Made by a program: the position numbers and the translations under genes. DNA of 64,000 bases from the NCBI GenBank assembly GCA_014621425.1, contig JAANBB010000002.1, positions 375,001-439,000 of the forward strand. Reading direction: 5' to 3'. How positions within the stretch are numbered: position 1 is the first letter of the stretch; each line of letters starts with the position of its first letter. The notes under the pieces were generated by a model. The model ran no database searches. It was not told the origin of the DNA and worked only from the letters and a program-made list of their open reading frames with translations. Shown here in pieces: positions 9,817-60,487 of this stretch. This DNA comes from Cylindrodendrum hubeiense (lineage: Eukaryota > Ascomycota > Sordariomycetes > Hypocreales > Nectriaceae).

Positions 9817-11242
9817 TTAGAGAACGGACCCGGCCAACTTTGCACCTGGGAATTTGCTCTTGATGCCCTTCTCGAAACTTTTCCCACCGACGCTCAGATC
9901 ATCAAACGCCGGGCATGAAAGGTCTAAGATGGATGCTCCAAGAGTATCCGTGATTAGGCTGAGAGGCCCCTCAATGATGGAGAAGAGAGTGGATAACGAG
10001 TTTGGTGACACGGTTTTCACGACCTCAAAGACGAAACACAGCAAGTTGTTGCCTTGTAGCATCTCCGTGAGGTTCAACACGCCGCCTGTCACGTCACTGG
10101 GGTTGACACCGGCATAGCTGTTGACCTTTCCCATGTTGCCTCCAATGCTAAAAAGTGTCATCATACCGTTCTTTCTCAACTGATTTCCAGCATAGACTTA
10201 ACATACCTTCCAAGCTCAGGGTACTTGGCAACTGAAGCAAGAATGTCCAAGTTGAGGTCAATCAAGCCGTAATCAACCGGCCTGCGATACCAGTTCTCAG
10301 GGATTCTCTCCCATCCTCGTTTATAGGTGAAGTTGCCCTCTTTGCCTTGGACGGCATAGAAGCTTTTCAATGTATTTTTGGCTATGTAATGTCAGCATCG
10401 AAACTCTCCTTGCACCACGAGGGTTACTTACTCAGAATGCCGTCAGGATGTTCGGAAGAGTAGTTGGCAAACAGGCGACTGGCGAAGAAGTAGCCAGCAT
10501 TTCGGGCGATCATACCGGTGAATGGTCCGTAGTAAAAGTTTGGGTTCGCCGCTACAGACTCATGGAAGCGGATCCCAGCTCGCTCAACGAATATGTCGAA
10601 GTTGTAATCGCCCTCGCCTGATGACATGTCGTAAAAAGCCTGGAATTGCCTCATAACCAGGGTAGAAGCATCCCCGGTCAAGTAGAAGTCGTCTCGAGTG
10701 TTGGATGAGTCGCCCTCAATGATGTTGTGTGAGCCAGTAAGACCTCTAGGTGTGCCCAAAAGCCCAAGTAGATTGCCCAAAAGGTTCTGAGAGCTACTGG
10801 AGGCATCTCCGATGGAGAAACCTGGGTCGAGGGACAGAGGGTTTCCCACGAACACGGTGCCCATTACCGACAGGATAGTTCCAAGGTCCAATCCCATGCC
10901 GAGAACCTCATTGATGGCCCCCGTAACCTCTGCAAGACTCGTAACGCCCTTCCGACTGATGTAGCCATGGTTCGCCAATGCATTCAGACCGGGACAAGGC
11001 CCTCGTTGGGCGCCATTCTTGAAGTCGGGTGCAATGAACTTGTGGTCGCCGGTGACCTCAATCGGAGTTGTCGTCGGGTTGAATAGTGCCCTCTTCTCGC
11101 GTGCTGCTTGGAAAACACCGGGCAGCTCTGCGGAGAGTCTTGACGGCACGGTATCCGGGATGGGGCCGCTGAGGTAGGACGGGAACCCGTAGACGCCGCT
11201 CCCGAGGCAGGGCAGAATGGAAAACAGAACACGCCACTTCAT
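9817..11242 (-). CDS. secreted chloroperoxidase / unspecific-peroxygenase-like haem-thiolate protein
   Basis: Haem-thiolate peroxidase of the chloroperoxidase family, 438 residues. Exons are 10432-11242, 10207-10381 and 9817-10147. The start at 11242 gives a signal peptide (MKWRVLFSILPCLGSGVYG). The axial cysteine lies in the PCP motif at 82-84 (GPCPGLNALANHGYI). The acid-base motif is EGD at 176-178 with Arg at 183, the pattern of unspecific peroxygenases rather than the EHD of Leptoxyphium chloroperoxidase. At this length it belongs with the longer peroxygenase-like members. Intron 2 is the 59-nt GTATGT...TTTTAG form; a 27-nt alternative runs into a stop. Expected chemistry is H2O2-driven oxygenation or halogenation of aromatics outside the cell; substrate unknown. 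Confidence 0.88.
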
Positions 11243-12696
11243 GATGCCGTGACTGACAAACGAGTGCAATAATCGAACGAGGTAGTATTTGCAAGAGCGA
11301 CGTTGAAAACTGGCGCCACTTGCAGCATGCCCCAACACTCTGGAACAGTAGCAATTGTAAATTGAAACAATCTTATTGGGGTGCGGAGTACGCTTTAAGG
11401 TGTGACAAAGAATGCCTGTTCAACTACGGATCAGGCGGCAGTAGTATCCCTTTTCGAGAGGACATGCACAACTCCTGGGGCTCGTCTAGCCTGCAACTGA
11501 GCGAAGATCTTGTATTAGCTCTGAGAAGGGCAGACTCCGAGGGTGTAGATAACCTTGAGGTGGTATTCTGGGAGGGTCAGACCCACATGTCACAGTAACA
11601 GCATCCTGGAAGCGATTGTCTGGGCCCCTGAAGCTCATAAAAACAGAGAGGCGTGCTCTACTGTAGCTCCCGTTAGCGGTCAAAACACAGATCGAGATGA
11701 AGATGATTGTCGAATCGCAACATTCCCGGCCGGCCCTATGGTCATCGCAATATCAAGGGATTGGTCAGTGTGTGTGTGCTATGACGGGAGGCCTGAAAGC
11801 CCTGTCGCACTTATTTCTGTAGCTGGTTTCAAGCCGTCAAGCGCGCAGTCCGTGTAGAGCGACACTAACGATGTTAAGAATAGGCTAGGTCGAGATGCCG
11901 CGGCGCTCTTCAAAACGGGCAACGTGGCCGTGAACGGCATAGATCTGCATTTCAATTTGTTAAACTTTGACGAACTCATCCAAAGATGGACAAGGCAGGG
12001 CCCTGTAGCTTGTCAAAGCTCGTCGGCGGCCAAAGATAGCCCACTAGTCAGCCCGCAAACCAAAGGGCAGACTAGGATCAGCAAGGGCCAAGACGCTAAT
12101 CTCGACGGGATGTTTGCCCAAATTACATGGTCTCTCTGACAGAGTAGTTCCTCCTACTCGAGCGGAGCGGCTGGTCATCGCGAGTCATAGATACTCGGGT
12201 ACACGTTCCCATGGTCGGCAGCCGAGTTCCTCCTGCAGCCCCTGCATTGTGGAGGAACGCTCCTCCCACCCAGGACCATGGCTCACATAATCTGCCATCA
12301 TCGTAGAATACTACATAAACAGCAGGGTCAGATCCTTGTGCATGATGCGTCATTCTGTGGGATTGCAAAGACGATAGGCGAGTCTGCATCTGCATTGTCG
12401 TTGTGCCCTCCTTGCAGCGCAAGAGATTGTCCATCGCCAGACAAAAAGAGGGACTAGATGGCATCAGGCGGGACACGTCGACATCCCTGACACGGACCTC
12501 AGCCTTATCACGTTGCTGCAGCACATCACACGGCACGATTGCTTCGATGGCGCGCGAAGGCTTTGATGGCGCACGTTGTTAACGTCTTGTTTCCTCCACA
12601 ACTGAGCTCCACCACGGCTGTATGGCGGTGTCCGCGGACAATACCCCAGCCTGTCTCTCTCCCACTGAAACCGCTAGCACGGTTCCCATGAACCGC
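11243..12696. other. intergenic, no convincing gene
   Basis: Contains the promoter of the peroxygenase-like gene. Short open frames at 11320-11598, 11555-11857, 11924-12139 and 12123-12536 lack introns, domains or shared frame. The first three run in tandem on the plus strand and could be remnants of one dead gene, but I cannot support that. Confidence 0.4.
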
Positions 12697-13070: not shown

Positions 13071-14769
13071 ATGAGGCTCTTCGCATTCGCTATATTGATC
13101 CTTGCCACATTCCAGGCTGGCGTGTGGGCTGCCAACACCACCACGACTCCCCCCTTGTGCGGCGTAGGTTCTTCTTTGGGCGATGCTGGGCGACTTGGGT
13201 TAACATCGATTAGGTAAATTGCATTCAACAGGAGGTACTGAACTCGTCGTGTTCGCCTACGAACGCTACCTGTATCTGCACGAATGTCGAATTAAACGAG
13301 AAGATTTCACTATGCGCCTCGTTAAACTGCACACTCCGGGAATCGCTACGTATGTTCCTTCCATGGCCTCCCTCGTGATTCGTTTTCGCTGACAATTCTT
13401 TGAAGAGCTCCAAAGCTATTCCAAACACACATGCGGAGCACCGTCTAGAGACCGAACGACGTTAGTATGGGTCATCGGCGTCGTCTTTCTTGTCCTCGGA
13501 CTCGTATGTTTCGGCCTGAGAGTCCTGGCGAGATTCGTCCTGGGCACTCACACTTGGGGGGCTGATGACTGGGTAATGCTTCTTGCAGTGGTATGTCGAC
13601 TTCGCAAGCACTAGTTGAATGATAGCTCACTTTTGTCAACAGGCCATGATGATACCGCTCAATGCGCTCTCTATTCCCAGTACGTATCTTTCACCCTCAA
13701 CTTCCTGCACACGTATTGACTGTTTCGCCAGTTTCCAACGTTGCCTTGGGCAAAGATATCTGGAATGTCCCCGCAGATGATATCACCAAGTTCCTCTACG
13801 TGAGTATTCTACCCTCTTCGTCTGGCATTCGGAGACTAAACAATGATTCCAGTTGTTCTTTTGGGACGAACTTCTCTACCTAGGAGTTCTGCCGGTGACG
13901 AAAATATCCATCCTGCTTTTCTACCTAAAGATCTTCCCTGGCGCCGGGTTCAGAATCGCATGTTTTATCTTCATCGGGCTTAATGTAGCATACTTTATTG
14001 CGTTTGAGCTCGTCTCGATCTTCCAATGCACTCCTATCGAAGGTGCTTGGAGGGCATGGGACAAAGAATTCCCGGCGGAATGCAGGAACATCAATATGCA
14101 GGGCTGGATGGCAGCAATTATCAACATCGTCTTGGACTTGGGCACCCTCATTCTGCCATTAAGGGAGCTCTGGAGGCTCAATATGTCTTGGAGAAAGAAG
14201 ATCCAGATCATTCTGATGTTCTGTGTTGGGTTCTTGTATGTTTGTCGCTTTCTGCATTTGCCTATTGCCGCATCGCTAATGCTTTTACTAGTGTCACTAT
14301 CGTCAGCATCGTTCGATTACAGTCGTTGGCCAGCTACGCTACCACCCACAATATTACTCGTACGTATTCAGGACTTTCTAACTTGCATCAAACATGGGCT
14401 TTGTTGACTAACATAACATCAGAGGACTACGTGGAAGTTGGGTACTGGAGCACCATCGAAGTGCCAGTCGGCATTATTTGCGCATGCATGCCTGCCATTC
14501 GCTCCCTCTTCAGCCAAATGTTCCCGAAGGTGTTTGGTAGCACGGCAAGGAGCAAACCCGGCTATGCCGATATTTCGAACCAATCGAAGCCGATATCCTC
14601 ATCAAAGGCTTCTTACCAAACAACAATCCAAGTCAAAACAGACTTCTCTGTCAATTCGAGCAGGTCAAGGCATCACGACGACTCATCCACCATCGAGCTT
14701 ACGAACATGACGCCGAGCCATCACGAACGGCACCACTCGAAACCCACAACTCCCCGCGAGTCGGTATAA
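13071..14769 (+). CDS. CFEM-domain Pth11-like membrane receptor
   Basis: Plasma-membrane receptor-like protein with an extracellular CFEM domain and seven predicted membrane helices, 438 residues. Eight exons: 13071-13163, 13214-13349, 13406-13590, 13643-13679, 13732-13799, 13853-14235, 14292-14359, 14423-14769. A signal peptide (MRLFAFAILILATFQAGVWA) is followed by eight CFEM cysteines in order: PLC, x3, C, then SSC, NATCIC, ISLC, LNC and HTC. Helices follow from VWVIGVVFLVLGLVCFGLRV onward. The polar C-tail is Ser/Thr/His rich, as in the family. Pth11 of the rice blast fungus senses surface cues; the ligand here is unknown. Exon 2 uses the upstream GATTAG acceptor because only this restores the second CFEM cysteine. 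Confidence 0.9.
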
Positions 14770-16119: not shown

Positions 16120-18268
16120 ATGCGTCCCTCACTCGCCCTAACATTCGTTTCACTCCTGGCCAACGCAGCCGCATCTATGTAAGTATAGATCAAAATCCGC
16201 AAGAAAAGAATACGCCACCAACTAGTAGACAGTACTTTCCCCAGGAAGACAACAGGACAACAACCTCGCCATGATCCATTTATCGGCAAGCGCGCCGATA
16301 GCACAGTGGTGAACTATGACTATGTCGTCGTCGGTTCAGGCCCAGGAGGAGGTCCAGTCGCCGCCAACCTCGCCATCGCCGGCTATAAGGTGTTGTTGAT
16401 CGATGCCGGTGGTGACTCTGGTGACAGTTTAGTCGAAACGCTCCCGGCTCTGCATCTCATGTCTACCGAATTTGAGGATACGAGATGGAATTACTTTGTC
16501 AACCACTACCCCACCCTCGAGCAGCAAAAGAAAGACTCCAAGATGACCTACAACAAGACAGACGGTAGCTTCTACGTTGGCCTTGAACCGCCAAAGAATG
16601 CCAAGCCTCTTGGCGTCTGGTACCCTCGGACTGGCACACTTGGCGGATGCACACGCCACAACGCACTTGTCTCCATCTATGCTCACGATAGCGACTGGAA
16701 GAACATTGCTACCCTCACTGGCGATGCCTCGTGGAAGCCGGATGTCATGCGGTCGTACTTCAAAAAGATCGAGAACAACATGTATCTGCCCAGCAGCATC
16801 ATCGGCCACGGCTACAGCGGCTGGCTTGGCCTGTCTCTTACATCCCTCTCCCTCGTCATAGAAGACCAGAAGCTGCTGTCCTTGATCCTTTCTTCTGCTT
16901 CCGCCATGGGAAAGGGTCTCCTAGGATTTTTGTTGAACACTGTTGTCGGGCTCGGCGAGGTCTTGCTTCGCGACATCAACGCCCCTGGCCAGGCTAGCAA
17001 GACCGGCTTGTATCAGGTGCCGCTGTCAATGACTGACAACGTTCGCGGTGGCCACAGAGATCTGATTCTGAACACAGCCAACGCTGTCAAGTCCGATGGT
17101 TCGCGCAAGTACCATCTTGACATCAAGCTCAACACTCTGGTAGGCGCTGATTGATGAATTTAACCTCCTGCTCCGAGTGCTAACGATAACACAGGTCACC
17201 AAGATTCTGTTCGACAAAAGCGGATCTAAGCCTCGTGCCACCGGTGTCAGTTTCTTAGAAGGCCAGAGCTTATACCGTGCCGACCCCCGCGCTGGATCGG
17301 CCAAAGCTACTGGATCAGGCAGTGTCAATGCCACGCGCGAAGTCATCATCTCGGCCGGCGCCTTCAATACACCCCAGCTACTTAAGCTCAGCGGTATCGG
17401 ACCCAAGAAGGAGCTCAACTCGTTCAAAATCCCCGTCATAGTCGATCTTCCCGGCGTTGGTACCAACATGCAAGACCGCTACGAGGCCACCGTCATCGGC
17501 AAAACCGACAGCGATTTCGTCATCACGTCCGACTGCACTTTCCTAGAGACGATGCCTGACCCTTGTCTAGAGGAATACCAAAATGGAGTCGAACCCATCA
17601 GCAAGGGCGTCTATGGTACCAACGGTATCGCCATCGCCATTGTGCTCAAGTCCTCCGTCGCTGAGGGCGAACCTGACTTGCTCATATCTGGGGCCCCAGC
17701 CAAGTTCAAGGGCTACTTCCCCGGCTATGCCGCCGACTCGCTCGCTGACGCTCAGCACTGGGCTTGGATTATACTCAAGGCTCACAGCCGCAACAACGCT
17801 GGTACAGTCACTTTGAAGTCGACCGACCCGAGGGATATGCCAATCATCAACTTCAACTACTACAATACTGGTGTCAACACCAACGGAGAAGGCGATAAGG
17901 ACCTTCAGGCTACTTATGAAGGCTTGCAGTTTTCCCGCAAAGCCTTCGCTGATCTTATCCCTCTTGATGGAAACTTCGACGAGGTCTGGCCCGGCAACAA
18001 TGTCACGACCAAGCAAGATGCCAAGCAATTCATCAAGGACGAGGCTTGGGGTCACCACGCTTCGTGCACCTGCCCCATTGGTCCCGATAGTGACCCGATG
18101 GCTGTTCTTGACTCCGAATTCAAGGTCCGTGGCACTGAGGGCTTGAGAGTAGTTGATGCTAGCGTGTTCCCCAAAATCCCTGGCTTTTACATTGCTCTGC
18201 CTCTGTTTGTTGTCTCGGAGAAGGCGAGCGATGTTATCATCAAGGCGGCCAAGGCCTCTTCAGTTTAA
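16120..18268 (+). CDS. secreted GMC-family FAD oxidoreductase
   Basis: Glucose-methanol-choline oxidoreductase, 675 residues, probably extracellular. Exons are 16120-16178, 16245-17139 and 17195-18268. The first exon encodes a signal peptide (MRPSLALTFVSLLANAAAS). The FAD motif is VVGSGPGGGPVAANL at about 48-62 with a downstream acidic residue in VLLIDAG. GMC signature 2 is seen as ISAGAFNTPQLLKLSGIGP. The catalytic histidine is in GHHASCTCPIG near the C-terminus, followed by LRVVDASVFPKIPGFY. Members oxidise alcohols or sugars and deliver H2O2; here a functional link with the H2O2-using peroxygenase-like enzyme 5 kb away is possible. Which alcohol is used cannot be told. Confidence 0.9.
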
Positions 18269-31883: not shown

Positions 31884-34800
31884 CTAGTCTTCATAATACA
31901 CTCGGATCGATGCATCCTGAATCCAGCATTGCCAACCTTGATAGTTAGCCCTAGGGATTATGCACAGTCGATCACCTTGCCGCATTGAGTTGATAAAGGA
32001 TTCTGCTTCAGCAGGTTGAGACGATGGGCCATGTGCGTCGGATTGGGGGCTGTGAAAGTTTAGCTTGACCTCTACTATTGATATTGCGCACTTACCCTGA
32101 ATCCACATCCCAGCCGATATTGTAGGTTGTCCAAGTTCCAACATTGAGTAGATTTCGTGTGATCTCAAGCTCTTTGAAAACGTTTCCATCTGCACCGTTA
32201 AGTTAATTTGGAAACCTCTAGGTGAAATACAGAAACTCAAACCTCTCTTGATGACAATTTGAAACGAAGTTTGGCTACCGTGAGACGTTCCTTTATCCCA
32301 CGGATACTTATTCCCATGGTCTGACCACCCTTGATCTTTGCCCGTGATAGAAACAACGATCTTTGACATAGGTACTGTAAAAACATGGTCAGAAACAACA
32401 AATTGAGAAAACCAGGGTTTCTTAGTGTACTCCTCAGAAGAGACATCATAACATACTCTTTGCGGTGGTTGGAATTGGGTCGGATTCCAGATATAATCCA
32501 CTACGGACTCCCAAGAACTTCACCACATGCTGCATCTCTGGAGATTGAAAAGTCATCGCCGTTACCTCATCTCCTACTACCACGGCAGTACTGCGTCTCT
32601 CCGATTGAAGACATTCGATCTCCTTGGGAATGGTATCGTAGTCTGGAACTAGCCGATTTTGGTTCCACAACTTTCTAACGGGGTTCCGGGCAGAAGCAAG
32701 ATCCACGATATGCTGGTTTGCCGCTGAGGGCATCAGAGTGTTTGGATCTCGAGCCCAGATTGCTTCCACCACTTCAGGGTTGCACAACTCTGTACACCAA
32801 CGCAGCGTACCGTCATCTGAAGCACCTCTGTCAACACCGTGGCCGATCAAAACTTTCGCAACCGGATAGAAGCCCAGTTTCGTAGCCTCCACAAGGAGAC
32901 TCTGGTAATTCGCTTGTTTTCTAGATTTGTCCAACTCCTCTCTTCCATACCTCTCCATGGCTGCCCTCACAATGTCAGGGTTACCGGTCTGCACCGCATT
33001 TCGAAGTGGGGTTGAGCCATGTGCAAACATCTCTCTGGCCTGGGAAGAATACTGTAGAAGTAGACTGAAAGGTTTGACCGGGGCGTCATGTTGCAATACG
33101 TCAAGGAGCTTTTCAGCATCCTGGCGAGAAAGATCATTACCAATTATTGGTATAAGCTCCTCAATGCACTGCAATTTTCCTTGAAGAATTGCCTTTCGCC
33201 TATCTTCTGGAATGGATGAATCAGGGGCGGTTGCTGCGGTGGAAATAGGGGTACGCCCTTTGTTATCCTTGAGGAAAAGGAGTTCTCTCCGCTGCTCTAA
33301 ATCCGGTTGCATTGCTGCCACATGGTATGGCCGACCCCATCGGCATGCAACATGAAGTGGTGTCTGACCCTCGTTGTCTTGAATGGAAAGATTTGACTTC
33401 TTGAGAAGAAGTTTGAATCCGTCCGTCCGAGCTAAAACCATGTGTCCTTCATGACGTGCAGCAAGATGTAAGGCACATTCTCCGGAACGGTTTTTGGCAG
33501 ACAGGTCCGGTTCTGCTTCGAGAAGTCGTCGCACCGAGTTAGATGCTCCATTCCAGCATGCCCATGCAGCTACCATCAAGGCTGTGGAATTCTGTTCATT
33601 CCGCAGTTCCAGCAAATCTCGTCCGCCAGGAAAATTGAGTAGTGCACCAATGATTCCCGGTTCATTGGCTTCGGCAGCTTGGTGTAGTGCGCTTGAGCGC
33701 GAGGGGCCAGCACTTCTTAGGAGAAACTCGTGCCCATGTGGCATTGATTTCATGGACTTCAGAATTCTTTGAACAATTTTGAGATTTCCTCGGTGGTTTA
33801 TGTTGCCACATGCATCCATCAAAGGAAGCCGTCCCAGTTTGTCTTCTCTCGAAACCATGCTGTGTCTTTTGATCAATGAGGCGGTCTCCAGTATGGCATC
33901 AACTACCTTGTCATGGCCCGCCATGACAGCAGCTTGGAATGCAGTTACTCCTTCGGGGCCATTTCGCCTATCTGGATCGGCCCCTAGAGAAATCAAGACC
34001 TCGACGATCTCGTAGTGTCCCAATCTGGACGCCATGAAAAGGGGTGTATACTCCACCTGGTCCCAAGATGGATTTTGAAACCCCTCTATATCATTTCCTT
34101 GATTGATCCATTTCTCAGCAGTCACGGGGAGGTTGAATAAAGCGAGAATGTGCAACGCAGATAGCGGAGGCGTTTCGGTATCCAGCTTGTACCACATTGC
34201 GTCTTTCCAAAACCCCAGCTCTTTGAGTTGCCGCTGAATAGCAATAGTAGCTGAGTCAAGAAATCGATCTCGTTCGAGGAGTTTCATTATGTCCAGATTT
34301 GGGAATGGCTCCGCCGGTAACCTTTCGTCTGCTTGCTTCAAATGCCAACCCCAATTGGAGGCTGCGTATTCCAAGAAGGGAGACGCCCCAATAGCTCGTT
34401 TCCATTGGTCCAATGTTCCAGCATCTTCACCAGACTTTCCCATACATCCTAGGCATGTTTTGGCGATGAGGCCATGGGGATTCTCAAAGTGGGTTCCGGT
34501 ATTTCGAGGATTGGTACAGTAGTCCTTGACAGCTTTGTGGATGGAAACAAAATCCGAGCTGGTGCCAATACTAAGGAAGTAAGAAGTCGACTTGATGAGT
34601 GTATCCTTTTTGAAATTGACAAGGTCTGTGTTCTTTGAGTATCTTGAGAATGCGAGTGCATGCTGCAGTTGTCCAAGTTGAAGACCAGACCCCACAGTGT
34701 GAATGATCCACAGAAGGGCTTGTCTGCCTGTTATATTCTCACCGATGCGATCCATAACTCTTCTAATGAGCTCATCAAGGCCATTTGTGAGGTTATCCAA

Positions 34801-36387
34801 AGCCTCATCCACACCTTCCGGGTCCAAAGTGTAGAATTGCTTGATGAGCAAATCAGCGCAAAGGAAGTTTTTATTTGAAATCTCGATGATTCTGTCACCG
34901 AGCTTCCTAAGCTTTTCTTCCGTATCCAGTCTCTTAGAAAGTACTGAAGAGCCCAAGAATATGTCTGATTCGTCTCCCGCCGCAATGGTCTTAAGTTTGT
35001 TGTTGACGAAATTACTGATGGAGCTTTTGTTGTTATCGGCATTTATAATTTTGGCTTTCATATGTTCCGCGTGATGACGCAAACCTTCTCTCGAGGTAAG
35101 AATGACTCGTGCTTCTGGTGAGTTCAGCTTGTGTAATTTGGGGATGACATCGCGGTAAATGAGATCTGGAAGCTCATCAAGCCCATCAACCAATATGTAG
35201 ACACGGTCGAAGCTCCGCGATACAGCACCCAAAACCGAGAAAGCCGAATCTCCTTCCTGGAAACTCCGAGCCGGTCGTATCAGATGATCGAGTGCTTTGA
35301 CGTGGCTACTAGCCTGTCGGGGAGCCATTTCCCACAGTTGGTGTAAGAGCTGGCGTATCAGGCAGGCAATAATCTGATCTGAATTCTGTCTCTCCTCTTC
35401 TTTGAAGGAACAGTAATAAATTGTAACACCCACCACGGGTGGCTTTAGGGGGCTCTCGTCCTTATTATCAGCCGGCCATGGGTCATCCGGATCCAAACTC
35501 AGCAGATGTTGCGCTAAAAAAGTAGCCAGATGAGATTTGCCGGCGCCAGCTTCTCCAAGGATCCACAACCACGGGGCATCATCGCTCAAAGGAGCTTTAT
35601 GCCAGGTCTGAAAGGACTCTTCATCAATAATCCAGGAAGGTGGACTATGCTTCAGGTTATTGAGCTTTTCTCCCGCGGAGGGTTCCAATTGAATCGGGAG
35701 TTGCTCGACAGCTCTGGTGAATTGTGTGGCATCGATTCCCTTTTCGATGTTCTTGAGACTGTCAAGAATATTTCGTTGTGCCTCTACAGTGTCAAGAGCT
35801 TGGTACGTATTGAATACCACTAGTGCTCTCCAGGGAACGTTAGCGGCGAAGGAACCAAGAAATGCCACGTTCAAAACTAACCCATCAAGTCTCTCGTCCT
35901 GATTGTGGAGCTCATCTACACGACCGTTGATCCATGACTCGTCAAGAACCCATTTGACTCCCTTCCAACTCCGATCAAACCCTCGTTGAAATGACGACTT
36001 TAGCTTCTTGTCCTTGAAATATTCTTGGAGGTCATCAACTATGCTATCATATTCATCAAGGATTTCCGGGATTTTGGTTTGAGTGCGGTTCACCAAGGAC
36101 TGGACGTCTTCGTTGGGAGATAATGAGGAAAATAGGCGCTTCATATCCTCGATTCGTTCTTGCGATTCCTTCAATGTTTCAGACTATTCATCCAAGCGTC
36201 AGCATTCCAGCGTTCACAACACATAGTCATTGCTCTACAACTCATGTTTGATGGTGAATCCTTGAGTGGGCTGGATGAGGCATACCAAGTTGTTGACTGT
36301 TTTCTCAGCCTTGGCAGCTGTTTTTGTCTTCTTGACCAACAGCGCCACCAGCTTAATCGCCTCTATAGTCGTGGTAAAGATATCCAT
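31884..36387 (-). CDS. NACHT-ankyrin NLR-like protein
   Basis: Fungal NOD-like receptor of about 1414 residues. Exons are 36286-36387, 32566-36183, 32243-32507, 32096-32189 and 31884-32049. Residues 1 to about 200 are helical and charged, with a hydrophobic stretch near 138-160; this would be the effector/signalling region but matches no type I can name. The NACHT domain has Walker A GEAGAGKSHLATFL (about 244-257) and Walker B VYILVDGLDELPD (about 362-374), then LTSREG. Ankyrin repeats fill about 720-1200 (for example YTPLFMASRLGHYEIVEVLISLGADPD). The last ~200 residues form a beta-rich region with ITGKDQGWSDHGNKYPWDKG, a motif I have seen at the ends of other fungal proteins of this kind. 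Likely cytosolic sensor for non-self recognition or regulated cell death. The 32508-32565 intron (acceptor GAG) is the least certain junction. Confidence 0.87.
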
Positions 36388-37865: not shown

Positions 37866-38644
37866 CTAGTTATCAGAAGCTGCGATTATCCTATCTGCCA
37901 TATCAGGCAATGTGTCCGCAACAATATCCATCTGTCCAAATATTTCGGGGAGCGCCTCGCCCTCTAGTGCAGTACAATAGGCCGCATTAAATCTGCAAAT
38001 TGATGTCAATAAAGAAGGAAACAGAAGCAGAAGATGAATACATACCCCACAGTCTTGGCTGTAGATGCATCCCATAGGTGGGCAGCTGCAAACCAAGGTT
38101 TACGCCCGCCGACTGAGAGCCGTTTCAGAATAGGCTCATAGGCCTCCGGGGTTGGCTTTGCAAGCCCTGCCGAGTCACAAGACAGAAGGCTCTCTACCGG
38201 CATTTCGACACCTCCTCGCGAGAAGTACCCTTTGACCCGGGCAATATCCCCTGCTGTAAAACACCAGACTGTGAAGCCGGCCTCGCGCAGCTTGCTGATG
38301 CACTCAGAAGCTCCCTCTCGAAGAGACAATTTCTTCCACTCCTCAATTAGATGCGCAACATCATCTGAGCTTGCAAACGAGTGTGGGTCTTTGATCCCAG
38401 CGTAATGGAGACAGCGGTAAAACAAAGCCTCGAAAACCTTGAAGAAAACTACATAGCGCCCAGACATGGAAAGATACGTGTACTCGCGCTCAGCCACCTC
38501 CAGCCAGCAGCATCCAAGAAGCTTCGGCTGGATGCCACGAGCGCGAAGCCGTTCGCCCAGTCGTTCGTCAATAGCCTCGAATAGGTGCTCATAGGAGACG
38601 AGAGTGCCAACAACGTCAAAAACGACATTCTTTGGAGCAGACAT
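37866..38644 (-). CDS. haloacid dehalogenase-like hydrolase (type II L-2-HAD group)
   Basis: HAD-superfamily hydrolase of 241 residues, exons 38046-38644 and 37866-37992. The nucleophile is Asp10 in VVFDVVGTL. Motif II is TVWCFTAGD, motif III the lysine in GLAKPTPEAYEPIL, and the final acidic motif region AAHLWDASTAKTVG. The order and spacing are those of fungal 2-haloacid dehalogenase type II proteins, which act on short 2-halo acids or, more often, on unknown phosphate esters. The first intron ends TTGCAG. The gene is divergent from the flavin oxidase at 39808 over a 1.16-kb spacer that carries repeats and CCGG palindromes, suggesting joint control. Actual substrate unknown. Confidence 0.87.
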
Positions 38645-39807
38645 GGTGAGGAGTTGACGAAAATATTTTGGAAGAATATGCAATAAGTCGGAATTGAGTG
38701 ATGATTGTTTTGATGAAGAATACTCGAGAGCCTGACACAATGCGCTACCTCAAATATAGGGTTTCTAATAGGTGATACATATTGTCTATACTCTATAGAA
38801 ATATCGCACTTTGTTAGTTCGCCGTGTAGAGGCTCCACCTCTGAGTCCCGGAAGCTGGTCCGGCTGAAAAGACCCAGCCTTTGTTACCAATATGTTGCGA
38901 ATCGCAGTCGGCTTTGAGCCGATTAGCCGTATTGAGTGAGGGGTATGTGCTCCGAAACCGGTCCGGCGATAACCCTGTTTCCTATCGTATCAATGACGGT
39001 AATACTTTCCGTGTACAAAAGTTCGTTCTTATCAGTTGGCCCGGTCAGGATGATTAAGCCTTTGATGACTATAATGCAAATTGCAGCCGGCCTGTCGCCG
39101 ATCAGTTGCATTGAGGGGTAGATGCTCCCTGACCGGCCCGGCGATTACCCCTGTTTTGAGTCGCATCAATCGCGGCCATACTTTCCATATACAGTAGTTC
39201 TTATCAGATCGTCCCGGAGGTGGGGGGTACATGCCATTTATCCAGTAAGTCTTGAATTTCGGCGCTACAAATAGGTCCGTATAACTTTCTAGCGGCATAG
39301 TCCTAAACTACTACTGAACTTTATAATTATTCCCTGCGGTAAGTGAGTATCATCGACAAGTTGACCATAACCAGACTAGACTGGAATAGAGGAAGCAATC
39401 GGAAATCTATGTATAGCCTGTGTTTAACGATTATATATAATTCCATTTGCAAAAGTCGATGGATGTTCGACATCATCATTATGGGAACGCACTATTCATA
39501 GTATTAACCTCCGGATAAGATAAGGATTTGTTCACTGACCAAAGGCTAACCATGTGGTCAAACCAGCGAAAAGGACCAACGAGAATCCCATTTATGATTA
39601 AAGTGGAAATCTGATAAACTGATACTTGGGAAGAGTGGAGCCGTACAATACATGCCTGAGCCCGGCAACCGGCCCGGGTCACTACTTCAACGAACGACGT
39701 GTAACGTCAATGAACTTAAAGGGACGCCAACTTCAGCTTGACCAGTAAATAATCTCCACGTCAATTCCACAATCTCAACTACCTAGCCAATACATCTATT
39801 TTGCACA
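38645..39807. promoter_or_regulatory. divergent spacer, HAD / flavin oxidase 1, repeat-bearing
   Basis: Holds two diverged direct repeats (about 38900-39220) and CCGG(N)CCGG-type near-palindromes at about 38866, 38958, 39132 and 39669. The same motif reappears in the spacer at 44526-45256. No gene seen. Confidence 0.5.
38900..39220. repeat. two diverged ~179-bp direct repeats
   Basis: Copy A (about 38900-39078) and copy B (about 39079-39220) share, in order, GCAGYCGGC, CCGAT(T/C)AG, ATTGAG, TG(A)GGGGTA..TGCTCC, ACCGG(T/C)CCGGCGAT(A/T)ACC, CGTATCAAT / CGCATCAAT, CATACTTTCC-like and GTTCTTATCAG blocks. Offset is 179 bp (for example ATTGAG at 38931 and 39110). Pairwise identity looks around 70 percent by eye. 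No coding capacity. Confidence 0.75.
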
Positions 39808-41618
39808 ATGCCTCTCCCAATCGAGAACCCTACGAAGTCGTACTGGATTGAGGGGGCTGAATCCCCTCTACGGGACTTTCGCTCCACCAATGACTTACCA
39901 AGCGAGGTAGACATCGCCATCATCGGCAGTGGGTATGCAGGAGCAACTACGGCCTACTGGCTTCAAAAGGTATTGAGAATGGCCTAATATCACGTTAGCC
40001 AACCAAATTCTAATTAAATGCTAGCATACGCAAAATGGTGCCGACAAGCCTAAAATGCTGATGCTTGAGGCACGGGATATTTGCGGATCCTCGACAGGCC
40101 GAAATGGTTGGTTTATTCTCCATTCGGATCCCTTCGAAACTAACCAAAGATAACCTAGGGGGGCAGTTGAGACCTCATGCCTACTCGCGCTACACGCCAT
40201 GGTCCCGGCGATTTGGATCTGAGGGGGCAATGGATCTCATCAAGCATGAAATGGCACATCTGTCTGCTTTTAAAGAACTCACAGCTGAGGAGGGCATTGC
40301 TGAGGAGGTATGCCTCAAGCTTGGCGAAACATTTGATGCAGCGATGTCAGATGAAGCGTGGACCCGACTGAGAAGCGCATATGAATTGATGAAAAAAGAC
40401 CACGGGGAAGACAATGAGGTGGTTAAAGTTTGCAGGGTTATCGAAAACGCCAAGGCTGCTGAGGAGTTCACTCAAATGAAGGCATGTCTCGGGGCCGTAG
40501 TACACCCTGCAGGCCAAATGTGAGTTCGCTCTATTGTGATGTGGATGTGCTCAAAGATAACTAACATCTCGCAGATGGCCCTACAAATTTGTGCATGCCC
40601 TTCTTCGCATCGTACTTGAAGCAGGCAACCTGAACCTCCAAGCGCACACGCCAGCTTTGAGTGTTTCAGAGCGAGATTCCAGCGGCTGGATCACAGTTAA
40701 AACGCCAAGAGGAGACGTGCGAGCAAGGTCGGTCGTACACACGACAAATCGATGGGCCTCCCACCTCTTACCGGAATTCGACAACCTTATTGTTGCAGAC
40801 AGAGCGACTTTGGCGTCTATTCCGGCTCCAGAGGGTTTTATCAAACACACCGGTGCCCAGCATTGGGACAGCGTTATCAACGTATGAGTGTTCTCAGAAA
40901 TGCGACAGTTCATAGCTAACCCACATAGAATTATCATCTCCAACTTCCACCACCATACAACAACATCATTATTGGTGGAGCGAGATCTGTTCTTGTTCAA
41001 TCTCCAGACAAGTGCTACCTGAATGATGAAGAGGACAAGCAATTCGATGGAATTCCTGAGTTTTTCCAATCTTGGGCTGGGTCAGACGTGGTCGGCTGGG
41101 AAGGGAACAATCCAGCAGAGTTATGGAAGGGTGTTAATGAGGGTGGTTGTTGGACTGGTGGTAAGTCTTCCTACCAGTCTCAAGACGCACAAATGGTTCA
41201 CTAACGGTATTACCAGTTGACTCAGTGAGTATCGACGGCTTCCCCTTCGTCGGAGCTATGCCAAATCGCTCTGGACACTTTGTTGCGGCTGGATTTTCAG
41301 GTCATGGTGAGTATTCTTCTCCGTATCATCGATTAAAAACATGACGCTGACGCAAGTACCCCAGGCATGCCGCGAATTCTTCTCTCTACTGCTCATATCA
41401 CACCGCTTATTTTGGATTCCTTGGGTGTCAAATACAGCCCCCCGTCCCTTGTTGGGCCATATCCAGCCCTACCAAAACCATTCCTAGCTACACAGGAACG
41501 AATCGACTCCCTTCAAAAGTTAGACGCTGGGGCCATATTTGAGCAGGACAAGACAGACGCCCTGGAAAGTGCAAAGAAGCCGTTTTGCAAGGGCCGCCAA
41601 ATCCAATCAAACCTTTGA
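39808..41618 (+). CDS. DAO-family FAD-dependent oxidoreductase 1
   Basis: Flavin amine/amino-acid oxidase-type protein, 495 residues. Seven exons: 39808-39969, 40025-40106, 40159-40519, 40575-40881, 40929-41160, 41217-41306 and 41365-41618. The FAD motif is DIAIIGSGYAGATTA (about 35-49), then LMLEARDICGSSTGRNG and GGQLRPH, the family hallmarks. The C-terminal DGFPFVGAMPN and VAAGFSGHGMPR form the second FAD-contact region. No signal peptide or membrane helix. Homologues (DadA/PuuB-like) oxidise amines, N-methyl amino acids or gamma-glutamyl polyamines. A related oxidase lies at 45257, with a transporter between. Compared with that copy, the stretch before NYHLQ is shortened (about residues 285-305), which could alter the substrate site. 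Confidence 0.88.
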
Positions 41619-42659
41619 AGTGAAGAAAAGGAATTGACGCAGACGAAATGCCAGATTAGCTGAACACCTGGTGACTTTTTCCATAGTACATACATCAGGC
41701 AATTGAATAATATTCAATCAAGTACTGCATTTAAAGATCAAATCAGCACATTTACATCCTTAAATTGAGTCACATATTGATGTTTGTTCTAAAAAGCAAG
41801 ATTTGAATATGTGTTGCATCTAGAGTAGGGTAAATAAAAGAAGCTACCGCGAGTCTCAAGGTATTTTCACACACAGACTAGGACTCAGAAACCTTTCCGC
41901 TATCCTAAATTCAATTAGCTCATGGGAGAGGTTACATAATAATTAGAGGAATTATATTTACTTAATCCATGTCAGGATTCCATGTGCCGACAATTGATTG
42001 GAATAACGGCCTCTATCCTCATTTGTGTCGAAACATTCTCCTCCCTTAATACTCTGTTCTCCAAACCATCACCAGCCTCCACGGCCTCATCATTCGGTTC
42101 TGCCGCTCTCAGTCATGTTAAGAAGCTCAAGATATGATGACATTGTGACGTCCTTAACTGATGGAACCCTTCATATTGTGACCTGGCCTCTTCAATTTCG
42201 ATTCTATAACCGGTCTTCTAATATATGATACAAGTGTGTAATTGCAATCCTCCTTTAAATGTCAAGATGTGACTTTAATGTGATAGGACACATTTTGAGT
42301 TGCAAACTGAATGCTTAAAATTGGTGCTGGTGTTGCAAGCGTGTGGTTAAAGTTATGAGGCTTCGCATTTGGGCGTATTCTTGTATATTTAATCGCTATC
42401 TAAAACAGATAAACGTATACTCACCAAGCTGACTTGACGTAGTATCGAAACTTCGTTGGACTTAGCAAGGCATAGGAATGGTGATTCACACTGCTGCACC
42501 TTAAGCTTCCGAAGCTGATCTCCCATTTAATTGTACATGGAGAGAGTGAAAGAGATGTTATCAGGAGACAAAAGTGATCGATTATACACGAGGACACGAA
42601 CCCATCCCCGCGTACTATCCTAGCCATGTATACACGTCCCTGCAGTCGTCTAGGCTGCT
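41619..42659. other. convergent AT-rich spacer
   Basis: Between the 3' ends of oxidase 1 and the UNC93-like transporter. No gene; contains expected 3' untranslated sequence and A/T-rich runs. Confidence 0.5.
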
Positions 42660-44525
42660 TTAGTCGACCTGGGTCTGTTTCGAGGATGGTATACCATGTA
42701 TCACTGCAGCTTCCCCTACAGCAACATCCACGGTTTCAGGGACCTCTGGCACCAGCCGGATGAGGAATACCATGCACGGAATAGCGAGAGCCAGAACTCC
42801 ACAGTTGACATAAAACGGAATTCGAGGATCAGCGGTAGAGTTGGAGTTGATAGCGTACGAGACCGCTTGACCAGCAGTTTCAAAAGCACGGAACAGGCCG
42901 CCCGTGCGTGAAGAAGATCCTACATCAGTTGAAAATGTGCCTAGAATCCAGTATAGAGAGAGCTGAGTCCAATATCCGGTGATGAAAATGATCAAGTATG
43001 GAAGATAGGCTTCTGCCCATCTCTTGCTTGCACTTTGATAACAAAAGATATTAGCCTATGGTTCAATTAAAGGACTTCAGGATTCAACTTACAGTTCGTA
43101 GTCCAATGCGGCTGTATCTTTCCCAAATTTGTGATACTCGATACCAATCCAGACGAAGCAGGCCGATTGGGGAATAACCCAGAGGATAAAAGCGAGCCAT
43201 GCCCGCTTTGATTGAGACCAGCGCTTCGAATCCAATAGTGACCCGTAGGCAATGACAGCTGGAATAGTGATTGTTGCTTGAAACAGATGAGTAAGCCTTC
43301 AACAGTAGCAGTTCCGAATTCACCTACGGACGATGAGCGATGACAAGCTTCGCGCGCGCACAGAAAAGTGCAACGAAAGGTACGTGCCCATAGTTCCACC
43401 ATAGAAGAATGAGTAGAAGGCAGGGATAAAAACGAGCCAAGTCTAAGTTCAAAGGTAAGCTATAGGCGGGATCAATGACTAGTGGAAATTGGCTGACCTT
43501 TTTGTGCTGCATGTGGATCCATAAGGCTTGAAACTCCTGCTTCCAGCTGATTCTTCCTGAGATAGGAATTTTGGATCCATCACGACGTCGAACACGTCTG
43601 GTGGGCGACAATAGGAAGGCCCAGATTACACCAGTGCACGCTATTCACCACAATAGTGAGAAACAATTATAGGTCAATATGTCAAGAGAAGCTCACCAAA
43701 ACCAACAAAGATGAGGTATGTAGACCATGCAATTCCTCCTGAAGAGGACTGGGTGTTGTTTGTGGAAAAGTTAATGGCACCACCAATAACACTGCCAGAG
43801 TTTCGCATGGCAGACCAAATTCCTGGACCAATTTCGTCAACGCAGGGCATAAACGATACTCGGCTTTGACTTACCTAGGTAGAAACCTCTATCATTTTGA
43901 TACGGGTATGATAACATTGCGGTCGTCTCTGCGACGTATAGGAAACCCGAGGTGAATCCTCCCAAAATCTATTAAATTGACCATTAGAGTTGGAGGAACC
44001 TTTAAAACCGGAGTTATTTGAAACTTGCATTTGAGAAGAGAAGGTACCAGTCCACGCCATATTTTGCGTTCACGTAATAAGCGGAACCTGACAGAGGCAT
44101 AGCCACCGCAGCAATCATGCAAGACCACTTGATGCCAAATTTGTTGATCAGGGGACCTCCAGCCAGTGTCACCATACAGCCGGCCGCGTAATTGAGCGAG
44201 TTGGCCAAGTTGGCTAAGTAAGGGCTGGATAGACCGCCTCCTCCTAGGTTGGAGATGGCATCGGACATAGCTGGGCCAACGAATGAGAGGCTACGCAACG
44301 ATTATTATGAGCTAGATTTTGAGTATTACACGACATGGTGGCTTACGCTCCAAACAAAATCATTTGAAATAGGACACTTCGGTAGAATTTAGGAAAGGAC
44401 GAAGCACGTAGATACGCTTCATCGATTTCACCATCTTGACCTCCATCGATGGTATAGCTTGGTACAGTGGCAAGTTCAGCCCTGTCAGCAGTTTTGCTGT
44501 CGTCTTTTGAATGTGAAGTTGCCAT
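42660..44525 (-). CDS. UNC93-like major-facilitator membrane protein
   Basis: Twelve-helix MFS-fold membrane protein of 491 residues, UNC93-like group. Eight exons: 44347-44525, 44029-44290, 43875-43968, 43697-43822, 43498-43640, 43328-43442, 43093-43276 and 42660-43032. A polar N-tail (MATSHSKDDSK) precedes FYRSVLFQMILFGALSFVGPAMSDAI. Next are NSLNYAAGCMVTLAGGPLINKFG, the family's early loop, and FTSGFLYVAETTAMLSYPY. Later helices include SLLDSKRWSQSKRAWLAFILWVIPQ. Intron 2 is a GC-AG intron (GCAAGT at 44023-44028, ATTTAATAG end), the only reading that joins the two halves. Probably a small-molecule transporter at the plasma or vacuolar membrane. It sits between two DAO oxidases and shares a promoter region with the second, so it may import their substrate. 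Confidence 0.88.
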
Positions 44526-45256
44526 GAGGGGCAATGAAGAAAGGACGTATAATGGGGAAATGGAGTAACCGAAAGTACCAAAGGGAATACAGTTTTATAT
44601 CCATTAGTATTAGAGATCCTATCATTCGTGCATCCTATACTATGGGGACGACTGATAAAGCCAGATGCGAGATAGCACCTCCACGTCAAGGATTCAGATC
44701 TACTGCCTAGCTTCCTTGCAACATCAACTCAAATTGATTAACTCGCTTGTTGCCAGATAGGTCAGAACCTTGCTCATACATCAATAACACGTAGTATTAG
44801 CGAGTACCGGTAAAATCTATTCCGGTTGACACCGGGCCGGGATCTTCACTGTACTACCTAGTAATGCGCAAGGCCTCATACGGTGTCGAGCGGCACGGGT
44901 CCGGGTAACCATTTCCTAAATTGAAATGGTCGAAGTATGTTAGCTACAAGCATCCCCCATTCTTGTGATCGGCGAACCGCGCGTCGCCTTATCTCCGACT
45001 ACCAAAAGTCCCTGCTAGAATTCTCCAGGGATCATTTGATAGCATCCCGGGCCGGCTATCGCGATATGCGATAACTCGCCAGTGGCTGGTCTATTTGGGC
45101 AATTCGGGCCGGAAGCGTTCCGACGACTCAGCTAACGTGACCAGGTCATGATATAACAGGCGACACCAAGCTCACTACACGCTTCCCATGCCCACCTCTT
45201 CCGTATTAGCAATCATCTAGCCTGTACTTTACCCCAATCGGACTGCTATCAAGATC
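44526..45256. promoter_or_regulatory. divergent promoter, UNC93-like / flavin oxidase 2
   Basis: 731-bp spacer between head-to-head genes. Contains CCGGGCCGG-type near-palindromes at about 44832-44842, 45046-45055 and 45105-45112, and the inverted repeat TATCGC...GCGATA at 45057-45071. The CCGG motif type matches that in the HAD/oxidase 1 spacer. Confidence 0.5.
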
Positions 45257-46830
45257 ATGCCCCCTTCCCCGCTCCCCGTCGCGAACCCCACGGCCTCCTT
45301 CTGGAGATCGTCTCCACACCCCCTGGATGATTATAGGTCTACCTCCGACGTCCCCTCAAAAGTGGATATTGCTATCATCGGTGCCGGTTATGCAGGTGTC
45401 TCGACAGTGCATCACATCCTCGACATCTGCAAGTGTCGGGGCACCGCGCCACCAAATATCGTGATTCTTGAAGCTCGACAGGCTTGTTCTGGGGCCACCG
45501 GTCGAAATGGTATGTTGTATCACCGAACTCGTCTTTTCCAGACTCCGGGTCTAAATCAATCGTGTGATAGGCGGTCATCTCAAGCCAGACCCCGCCAATC
45601 GACCCTCCAGTCTCGCCGTCACCTATGGCGTAGGGATCGCTTCAGAGTGTGCGGCTTTTGAGGCGCAAAATCTCTCCGCCGTGAAGAAGACGATAGAAGA
45701 TGAGAGTATCGATTGCGAATTTGTCTTGACACGCGCCGTCGACGCATTGATGTCAGATGCCATCTGCAACAAGATGAAATCTGGATTCGACATGCTCAGA
45801 AAGCTTGGAGTTTCAGGAATAGAAGATGTGCACTTCGCGAAGGGCGTGGACGCGGAAAGGGTTAGCAGAATACCCCATCAAACATATGCATATCCCAGGG
45901 TATCATGATGCTAATTAGAACCAGTTGTCGGGCGTAAAAGGGGCCAAGGGATGTCTTTCTTACTCTGCAGGACACCTTTTCCCGTACAAACTCATTCTGC
46001 ACTTGCTGAGCAAGGCCATTGACTCTGGAGTCAACGTTCAAACGCACACACCTGTCACTGAGGTCACCAAGTCGCCCGATGCGGAGGGCTATTTTACGCT
46101 CACGACGCCACGAGGCCTAATTCGTGCGAAAGACATCGTGTACGCAACAAATGGTTATACCTCATCGCTACTGTCCGAGTTTGCGGATAAGATTGTCCCC
46201 GTAAGGGGGGTCTGCTGCCATATTAAGCCGACCAAGAATCCTGCACCTTTTCTGCCAAACTCGTATATGATTCGCTGGTCAGACACAAAGTATGAGTATT
46301 TAATCCCGAGACTTGATGGCAGCATAATTGTCGGAGGCGCACGGTCCGAGTATTATCACGAACTGGAAAGCTGGTATAACAATGTTAACGACGACCTGTT
46401 GATTGAATCTGCAAAGCACTATTTTGATGGATATATGCAGCGTGTATTCCACGGGTGGGAAGATAGCGGCGCGTACACATCCCAACTGTGGACAGGAAGT
46501 GAGTAAAGGTATCTAATCTGATGTTCTGAATAAGTTACTAAACAGCGTGCTGCAGTAATGGGTTACTCGTCTGACGCAATGCCGCATATAGGTGTCGTTC
46601 CAGGAAGAAAGAATCAGTTTATGCTCGCTGGATTCACTGGGCATGGTATGCCACAAATATTTCTTTCAGCGAGAGGCATAGCATCAATGGTGCTTGACAA
46701 AATAGATTTCCAAAGCACAGGCATTCCAAGGATCTACAAGACTACACAAGCTAGATTGGACAATCCCAAGAACTCCATACTGGATAGTTGGAGAGAAGTA
46801 AATGATAAGCTAGACACCGCCAAGCTATAA
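45257..46830 (+). CDS. DAO-family FAD-dependent oxidoreductase 2
   Basis: Paralogue of the oxidase at 39808, 463 residues, four exons: 45257-45509, 45571-45860, 45925-46498 and 46556-46830. FAD motif DIAIIGAGYAGVSTV (about 37-51), then VILEARQACSGATGRNG and GGHLKPDPAN. Middle region TTPRGLIRAKDIVYATNGYTSSLL is the typical FAD/substrate-domain border. The C-terminus has SSDAMPHIGVVPG and MLAGFTGHGMPQ. Its middle is longer than in oxidase 1, with a complete IIVGGARSEYYHE stretch. Intron 2 uses the rare donor GTTAGC with a good CTAAT branch. The intron after GRNG is shared with oxidase 1, showing common descent; later introns differ. Expected to oxidise a secondary amine or amino-acid derivative and form H2O2. 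Confidence 0.88.
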
Positions 46831-59117: not shown

Positions 59118-60487
59118 ATGGCGGCCGACAGTCGCGGGCCACAAATTGGTGCCATTGCTTACACCTTCGTTATTGTCTCCTCCATTGCAACCCTCCTTCG
59201 AATCTACTGCCGCGGCTGGGTGATTAAAGCGTTTGCGGCGGATGATTGGCTTGCTGTTGTAGCCCAGGTGTGTGCTAATGGATAATCGTCCAACTATATT
59301 TTATTAATGCATAACAGATACTATTTATCGTCTTTTGTGCCTATGAGATTACAGGCGTTCATTATGGCACTGGACAGCATATCGGCGACATCGCTGATGA
59401 GAACATCCCCAAGGCAATGCAGGTGAGTAACGAGACTGGGCGCCTGTTGCTGGGCAAGCCTGACTGTTTATTCTAACGTCGCGACAGATGTGGTGGACCT
59501 GTGAGCCTCTTTACGTCTTGACGAACATGGCTATTAAAGCCAGCATTGCAATTTTCCTCTTACGAATCTGTGTTCACAAATATCACAAGATCACCATCTG
59601 GGTCGTCACTGGCGTCACTGAAGTCTACAGCTTGTTCTTCTTCCTGCTGTTTGTGCTGCAATGCCGACCTACATCCCTGTTTTGGCTCCGATACACCAGC
59701 GATCCTCCGGAGGGGAGCTGCTTGGATGCGAAGGTGGTCGCGAATGCCTTCTATGGCTACTCCGCTATTAGCTGCTGGACCGACTGGACATTCAGTATCC
59801 TTCCGATATTCCTCGTTTGGAAACTGCAGATGAACTTGAGAGTGAAGATCTCTGTAGTACTGATCTTAGCTGCTGGCGCCATGTATGATTCCCTTTCCTC
59901 CTTTTCTCCATCCCTCCTTCTGGCACAAGAGCTAACAGTGTCAACAAAGTGCTTCAAGTGCGACGATTGTCCGTTTCCCTTATCTCCATTCGTTAACCGA
60001 CATCGACGACTTTCTCTATTCTACCTCGGACGTCGCCATCTGGTCGACCGTTGAAACTGGCATTGGCATTAGTGCGTCCGGATTCGCAACCCTTCGACCA
60101 CTTCTCCGAACCTTCTTCGGTGGATCCTCAGCACAAGGAAACGGCACCTCGGCTCGACAATGGCACAGAACAGACAGTGACCACCCGAAAGGAGGATACA
60201 TTCGCAGCCGTGGCGTGGATGGCGAAGCCTTCGAACTACATGATAATGCCGGAAAGCGCATTGGAGTCACGACCGTCATCAACCACAGCAAGACTGGTGA
60301 GGCGGATATCGAAGGCCAGAAGTATAAGGGGGACAATAGATCGGATGGGTCAGATTCCGTTGGAGGGTTGGAGGACTGGAATAACAGCCAATCAAATCTT
60401 GCAGAGAGAGGCGAAGAGGCACAAGCCGGACCAGGGGCGTGGAACATTACAGTGAAGAAGTCAATTGTCCAAACGAGAGGAGTCTAA
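59118..60487 (+). CDS. Pth11-like integral membrane protein (rhodopsin-like, no CFEM)
   Basis: Seven-helix membrane protein of the fungal SAT4/rhodopsin-domain group, 395 residues. Exons are 59118-59267, 59318-59422, 59488-59882 and 59950-60487. It starts with a short outside tail (MAADSRGPQIG) and helix IAYTFVIVSSIATLLRIYCR, followed by the conserved DDWLAV. Later signatures are MWWTCEPLYVLTNMAIKASI, CWTDWTFSILPIFLVWKL and the WSTVETGIGISASGFATLRP block before the cytosolic tail. The last 130 residues are polar. It lacks the N-terminal CFEM cysteines of the receptor at 13071. Role unknown; related proteins are thought to sense environmental cues. Confidence 0.88.

Follow-up and report, generated by a model that had tools for sequence, protein, structure and literature searches.

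A candidate catabolic gene module with PrnA-type promoter sites in the fungus Cylindrodendrum hubeiense

Four genes in two divergent pairs

We analysed a stretch of 64,000 nucleotides from the fungus Cylindrodendrum hubeiense (Nectriaceae), here called the window (C112:375001-439000, on a contig of 550,424 bases in a genome assembly of 47.5 Mb and 798 contigs). At window positions 37866-46830 lie four genes arranged as two divergent pairs, one composed of a HAD-family hydrolase (HAD) and a flavin oxidase (OX1), the other of a transporter (TR) and a second flavin oxidase (OX2). An earlier reading made from the sequence alone (the sequence-only reading) had proposed this arrangement, and both the gene positions and the spliced frames agree with it. 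The gene models were predicted from sequence and spliced by hand, and all four are free of internal stops.

The HAD gene, on the reverse strand (38644-37866), has two exons (38046-38644 and 37866-37992) and encodes 241 amino acids (PF00702). OX1, on the forward strand (39808-41618), has seven exons and encodes a 495-amino-acid FAD oxidase of the DAO family (PF01266) ending in SNL. Tail to tail with OX1 is TR (reverse strand, 44525-42660; eight exons, 491 amino acids), an MFS transporter (PF07690) whose orthologues are annotated as UNC93-like; one of its introns (43969-44028, reverse strand) is of the GC-AG type, and the frame is kept across it. OX2 (forward strand, 45257-46830; four exons, 465 amino acids) is another FAD oxidase of the DAO family (PF01266) and ends in AKL. 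Each of the four proteins exceeds its Pfam cut-off. The deposited C. hubeiense protein G7Z17_g324 corresponds to our OX1 minus two stretches, both of which are present in the OX1 orthologues P0242 and P0243. The longest ATG-to-stop open reading frames (ORFs) that fit entirely within the three gaps measure 88, 68 and 58 amino acids, so that no extra gene is evident, consistent with the earlier statement that no unrelated gene intervenes.

The two oxidases are paralogues with 36% identity, in line with their description as related, and score far above the cut-off of PF01266 (OX1 126.6 and OX2 145.2 bits; cut-off 27.9). This family includes the monomeric sarcosine oxidase, glycine oxidase and L-pipecolate oxidase group, to whose solved members the module oxidases are only about 14-21% identical. 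Their NCBIfam scores are far below cut-off, as with L-pipecolate oxidase (NF050086), against which OX2 reached 58.3 and OX1 31.2 bits (cut-off 600). The suggested oxidation of an amine or amino acid is compatible with the oxidase folds, that of OX1 being seen through the model of an orthologue. The final codons of OX2 (46819-46827, forward strand) encode AKL, a canonical type 1 peroxisomal targeting signal (PTS1; [SAC][KRH][LM]), and this pattern is matched by 16 of the 29 OX2-class proteins among the matches listed. The SNL terminus of OX1 is not a canonical PTS1, and the OX1-class proteins listed mostly end without one. OX2 is probably located in the peroxisome and OX1 in the cytosol.

TR falls under the cut-off of the UNC-93 family (PF05978; 18.6 bits, cut-off 22.9), and its 91% identical Neonectria orthologue P0121 exceeds it with 25.0 bits. 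A search of the PDB with TR gave no useful match.

The structure model of the HAD protein (pLDDT 95.7) has a type-II HAD fold. In a Foldseek search it matched L-2-haloacid dehalogenases and cis-epoxysuccinate hydrolases (CESH) best, with 19-24% identity in the first ten rows and a TM score to the query of 0.67-0.83 among the 50 matches listed. Asp10, Thr14, Lys163, His189 and Asp192 are invariant across 24 aligned members, and with these enzymes the protein shares the fold, the nucleophile Asp, the Lys and the His-x-x-Asp motif (H190/D193 in CESH). It differs from them in lacking the cap Arg. Leu48 aligns with the cap Arg of 3um9 and 2no4, which we take to be Arg41 of L-DEX in both role and numbering; the 24 members have Ile, Met, Leu, Gln or His here, followed by an invariant Glu49. 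The position aligned with Asn119 is mostly Ala (19 of 24), and the score against TIGR01428, the model for type II 2-haloacid dehalogenases, is 81.3 bits, below the cut-off of 125.4. HAD phosphatases carry a second Asp at the position matching Val12; this Val is invariant in the 24 members, and we therefore set aside a phosphatase assignment. The label "dehalogenase- or phosphatase-like" given by the sequence-only reading is supported on neither count.

Loss of the cap Arg, coupled with invariant acids in the cap, suggests that the substrate is positively charged rather than a haloacid. In CESH, with the triad D18/H190/E212, the water that releases the ester intermediate is activated by a His and a Glu (PMC10869282). 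In the 24 aligned members Asp10, His189 and Glu210 are invariant and Glu212 occurs in 22; the two Glu lie 21 and 23 residues from the His, compared to 22 in CESH. By analogy, His189 may act together with Glu210 or Glu212 as the CESH His/Glu pair does.

A promoter word common to both gene pairs

The two divergent promoters have in common the word CCGG-N-CCGG. Three exact copies (38958-38966, 39133-39141 and 39669-39677) lie in the HAD/OX1 promoter (38645-39807). The TR/OX2 promoter (44526-45256) has two (44832-44840 and 45047-45055) and one CCGG-N6-CCGG direct repeat, which starts at 44822 and is overlapped by the first of them. The first two copies of the HAD/OX1 promoter fall in a tandem duplication with a period of about 175 bp (38937-39214; copies 75-83% identical in three repeat families), one in each repeat copy.

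These five are the only exact occurrences in 64 kb. The two promoters, 1894 bp together, hold all of them, and none falls elsewhere in the window (0.89 expected). Based on the genome total of 680, 0.027 would be expected in the promoters. None of 100 shuffled versions of the window reached five (mean 0.59, maximum 4), and among all words of the form 4-N-4 in the two promoters CCGG-N-CCGG ranked first, the runner-up occurring twice. For the looser CGG-N-CCG, enrichment across the window was not clear (16 compared to 9.64 expected; 5 of 100 shuffles as high).

A test of this observation outside the window came from genome searches with the four proteins, which identified a second cluster in a stretch of 18 kb (C556:223001-241000). 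It contains a Zn2Cys6-type protein, two OX2-like oxidases, two MFS transporters and a HAD paralogue (58% identical over its first exon) that directly adjoins an OX2-like oxidase. The Zn2Cys6-type half-domain is below cut-off (PF00172, E 0.002). Both exact CCGG-N-CCGG in the 18 kb fall in the 2.3 kb divergent promoter between an MFS gene and the HAD gene, where 0.033 would be expected (P about 5e-4). The HAD of this cluster lies outside the clade of the window HAD, and the cluster is therefore no recent duplicate of the one in the window.

Of the remaining paralogous loci, that of a further DAO gene on C214 carries one CCGG-N-CCGG site, 266 bp upstream of the gene; single sites at the others are near the rate expected by chance. 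A third HAD paralogue, on C84, adjoins an ORF that by eye resembles an amidohydrolase, inside which a site falls (C84:33728); no DAO gene was seen within the 3.8 kb examined there. A DAO oxidase and a UNC93-like MFS gene lie 9 kb apart at C113:205001-218000, separated by ORFs of which one resembles, by eye, a flavin-dependent monooxygenase. We did not count this pair as the same module, the identity to TR being only 27%.

CCGG-N-CCGG has been published as the site bound by PrnA, the activator of proline catabolism, and PMC5983819 describes the Aspergillus nidulans prn promoters as divergent, with several CCGG-N-CCGG and CCGG-6/7N-CCGG sites. The PrnA site type also appears in a table in PMC12941744. 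The five exact sites and the CCGG-N6-CCGG repeat of the module promoters are of this type; the protein that binds them and its inducer are putative. The module resembles the prn cluster in that a transporter is clustered with flavin-dependent imino-acid oxidation behind divergent, multi-site promoters. The enzymes differ, being DAO-type oxidases and a HAD hydrolase rather than proline dehydrogenase and pyrroline-5-carboxylate dehydrogenase, as does the transporter, which is MFS/UNC93-like where that of prn is a YAT permease.

Conservation of the unit in other fungi

Protein searches gave 241 HAD, 319 TR (from 7991 candidates scored) and 196 oxidase matches, and the best 120 of each were used; all counts below refer to these matches listed. 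Sorted by BLAST score, the 120 oxidases comprise 91 of OX1 and 29 of OX2 class. Two genes were taken to share a contig when their rows agreed in organism and in contig size, that is, the size of the longest contig of the cluster representatives. Rows with a source name and a contig entered this comparison (77 HAD, 104 TR and 96 oxidase rows); those left out were mostly from metagenomes, together with P0173, which has no contig, and P0099 and P0108, which have a jgi name only.

TR and OX1 lie on one contig in 27 of the 34 organisms listed for both, compared to 1.62 expected at random for a 40 Mb genome or 3.24 for 20 Mb. Scattering of the orthologues, named by the sequence-only reading as grounds for abandoning a cluster, is therefore not what was found for this pair. 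Locus tags could be compared in 12 of the TR-OX1 organisms: in seven the genes are adjacent (Neonectria ditissima, Penicillium brevicompactum, Hymenoscyphus fraxineus, Coleophoma crateriformis and three Kwoniella), in three they are 4-9 tags apart, and in two they are far apart (217 and 446 or more). TR and OX1 were not matched in seven of the 34 organisms, including Coleophoma cylindrospora and Pseudogymnoascus 05NY08, where the tags are far apart. TR-OX1 thus shows the adjacency across species that is typical of a fungal catabolic gene cluster. Because Kwoniella is a basidiomycete (Tremellomycetes), the pair spans two phyla. In an unrooted tree, the OX1 proteins of Cryptococcus and Kwoniella group with ascomycete OX1 (100/100), away from those of Naematelia and Vanrija. 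Given the adjacency in Kwoniella, the pair may have been transferred from one phylum to the other.

The other two genes accompany this pair in fewer organisms. TR and OX2 share a contig in three of four organisms (0.18 expected at random for 40 Mb, 0.37 for 20 Mb), HAD and OX1 in three of 11 (0.53 and 1.06), and HAD and OX2 in one of two (0.03 and 0.05). By locus tag, HAD lies next to OX1 in N. punicea and TR next to OX2 in Fusarium lateritium; in F. torreyae the tags of HAD and TR differ by two. In the HAD tree, the window HAD falls in a clade of 37 rows (100/95) and, inside that, in one of 23 rows (99/96). In the larger clade, HAD is on the same contig as TR in five of 11 organisms and as OX1 in three of four, compared to none of five and none of seven outside it, so that the association is tied to the clade of the window HAD.

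These results, together with the second cluster on C556 and the common promoter word, support the four-gene module of the sequence-only reading as a real unit. They do not support it as one indivisible block: TR-OX1 is a widespread core, which HAD and OX2 accompany in fewer fungi. That the four genes form a functional unit is, in our judgement, highly probable.

In the TR tree, which omitted 19 Fusarium and Colletotrichum rows, sordariomycete TR proteins split into several lines. One line of 16 rows contains TR proteins with OX2 or HAD on the same contig (Microdochium, Fusarium lateritium and Colletotrichum incanum), raising the possibility that two gene units have merged in the window.

Elsewhere in the window, a frame of 1245 amino acids (32446-36183, reverse strand) combines NPHP3_N with ankyrin repeats, a fungal NLR-like kind of protein. 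Frames at 10424-11419, 14008-14769, 16189-18268 and 59464-60487 encode a Peroxidase family 2 protein, two fungal rhodopsin-domain proteins and a GMC oxidoreductase.

Possible function of the module

The interpretation that we favour is that a Zn2Cys6 activator of PrnA-type specificity, either PrnA or a relative, would bind CCGG-N-CCGG in both divergent promoters and switch on all four genes as one coregulated catabolic module. TR would import a small amine or amino acid, secondary or cyclic, such as proline, pipecolate, hydroxyproline, or an N-methylated or strained analogue. OX1 in the cytosol and OX2 in the peroxisome would oxidise C-N bonds with FAD and O2, producing H2O2 and an imine that would then be hydrolysed. 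The HAD protein would open or cleave a C-N or C-O bond through Asp10 and a water activated by His189, acting on the substrate or on an intermediate; the order of steps is provisional. We regard the odds that the genes are jointly regulated and serve to take up and oxidise a proline-like or secondary amine as evenly balanced, and that the substrate belongs to this class seems to us just as likely true as false. A role for PrnA itself as the regulator is doubtful.

Several observations weigh against this interpretation. CCGG-N-CCGG was spotted by eye before the statistics were applied, and since the first two sites lie in copies of one local duplication, the number of independent sites is four. 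A PrnA-proline regulon acting through this word is not shown in C. hubeiense: of the four proline-dehydrogenase genes of the genome (on C41, C70, C656 and C791) the first three were checked, and no CCGG-N-CCGG was found near those on C41 and C70 or in 1 kb at the start of that on C656. The stretch examined at the OX2-like gene on C246 also has none. A motif scan of unspliced frames found no Zn2Cys6 domain in the window, and hence no regulator gene comparable to that of prn. HAD and TR share a contig in only five of 16 organisms (0.79 expected at random for 40 Mb, 1.51 for 20 Mb), and OX1 and OX2 in neither of the two organisms found in both lists. Finally, the substrate is not given by fold alone.

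An alternative is that the genes are a small biosynthetic or tailoring cluster, in which the oxidases act as FsqB does in fumisoquin synthesis and the transporter exports the product. FsqB of Aspergillus fumigatus is described as a fungal flavoenzyme of the amine oxidase family. By that description it resembles the module oxidases in being gene-clustered and sets a precedent for such an enzyme within a biosynthetic cluster, and MFS proteins are capable of export. FsqB differs in that its own cluster is described as biosynthetic, whereas no synthase domain was found among the 30 Pfam-scanned ORFs of the 50 in the window with at least 150 amino acids, in keeping with the sequence-only reading. 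The peroxisomal signal on OX2 and the occurrence of the core pair in both Ascomycota and Tremellomycetes, which appears wider than usual for a product cluster, also argue against biosynthesis, and we consider it unlikely.

Slightly less probable is that the module serves to detoxify or exploit a toxic analogue of proline, chiefly L-azetidine-2-carboxylate, with HAD opening the ring as AzhA does and the oxidases processing the resulting amine. PMC8016842 describes AzhA of A. nidulans as a HAD-superfamily protein of 241 amino acids that enables use of L-azetidine-2-carboxylate as a nitrogen source. It is thus similar to the window HAD in superfamily and length and acts on a proline analogue, and the promoter word is, as published, that of a proline regulator. 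The same paper reports AzhA to be independent of proline induction and 44.5% identical to a Pseudomonas enzyme. In contrast, searches of 84,980 genomes with two short sequence patterns, which limit their reach, turned up just two bacterial proteins related to the window HAD, 25-26% identical; AzhA is compared here by description alone. The window HAD and its two paralogues also score lowest among the type-II HADs of the genome (76-78 bits, compared to 91-135 for seven others), and an AzhA orthologue may be one of these seven.

It is improbable that four unrelated catabolic genes have become neighbours by chance. The sparse pairing of HAD with TR and of OX1 with OX2 would fit such an arrangement, and the TR-OX1 association in 27 of 34 organisms, the word common to both divergent promoters and the second HAD/oxidase cluster on C556 speak against it. 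Least credible is the degradation of haloacids or halogenated amino acids by HAD as a true 2-haloacid dehalogenase, a reading favoured by the best Foldseek matches and by the source-given names of HAD relatives and contradicted by the TIGR01428 score and the replaced Arg and Asn positions.

Clusters of nutrient-use genes are already known in fungi. In open-licence PMC papers, we found no description of a module with this composition and site type; expression tables in PMC7010643 list UNC93-like, oxidoreductase and dehalogenase genes separately. The module links four families with no assigned fungal role, namely a UNC93-like transporter, two DAO oxidases and a divergent type-II HAD, to each other. 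It also ties them to a named class of regulator site, narrowing the search for a substrate, so far "some amine", to proline-like and secondary amines. Returning to uptake and oxidation of such a compound, we speculate that the module could represent an undescribed second proline-type regulon of Dikarya. Its ancient mobile core would pair a UNC93-like importer with a cytosolic DAO oxidase; to this core some Sordariomycetes would have added a peroxisomal oxidase and a HAD hydrolase of C-N or C-O bonds under PrnA-type sites, for use of one plant-derived cyclic or N-alkylated amino acid. This proposal is tentative and a little less probable than a role for PrnA itself. If it is true, it would provide a first substrate for fungal UNC93-like proteins and a new reaction for this HAD subfamily.

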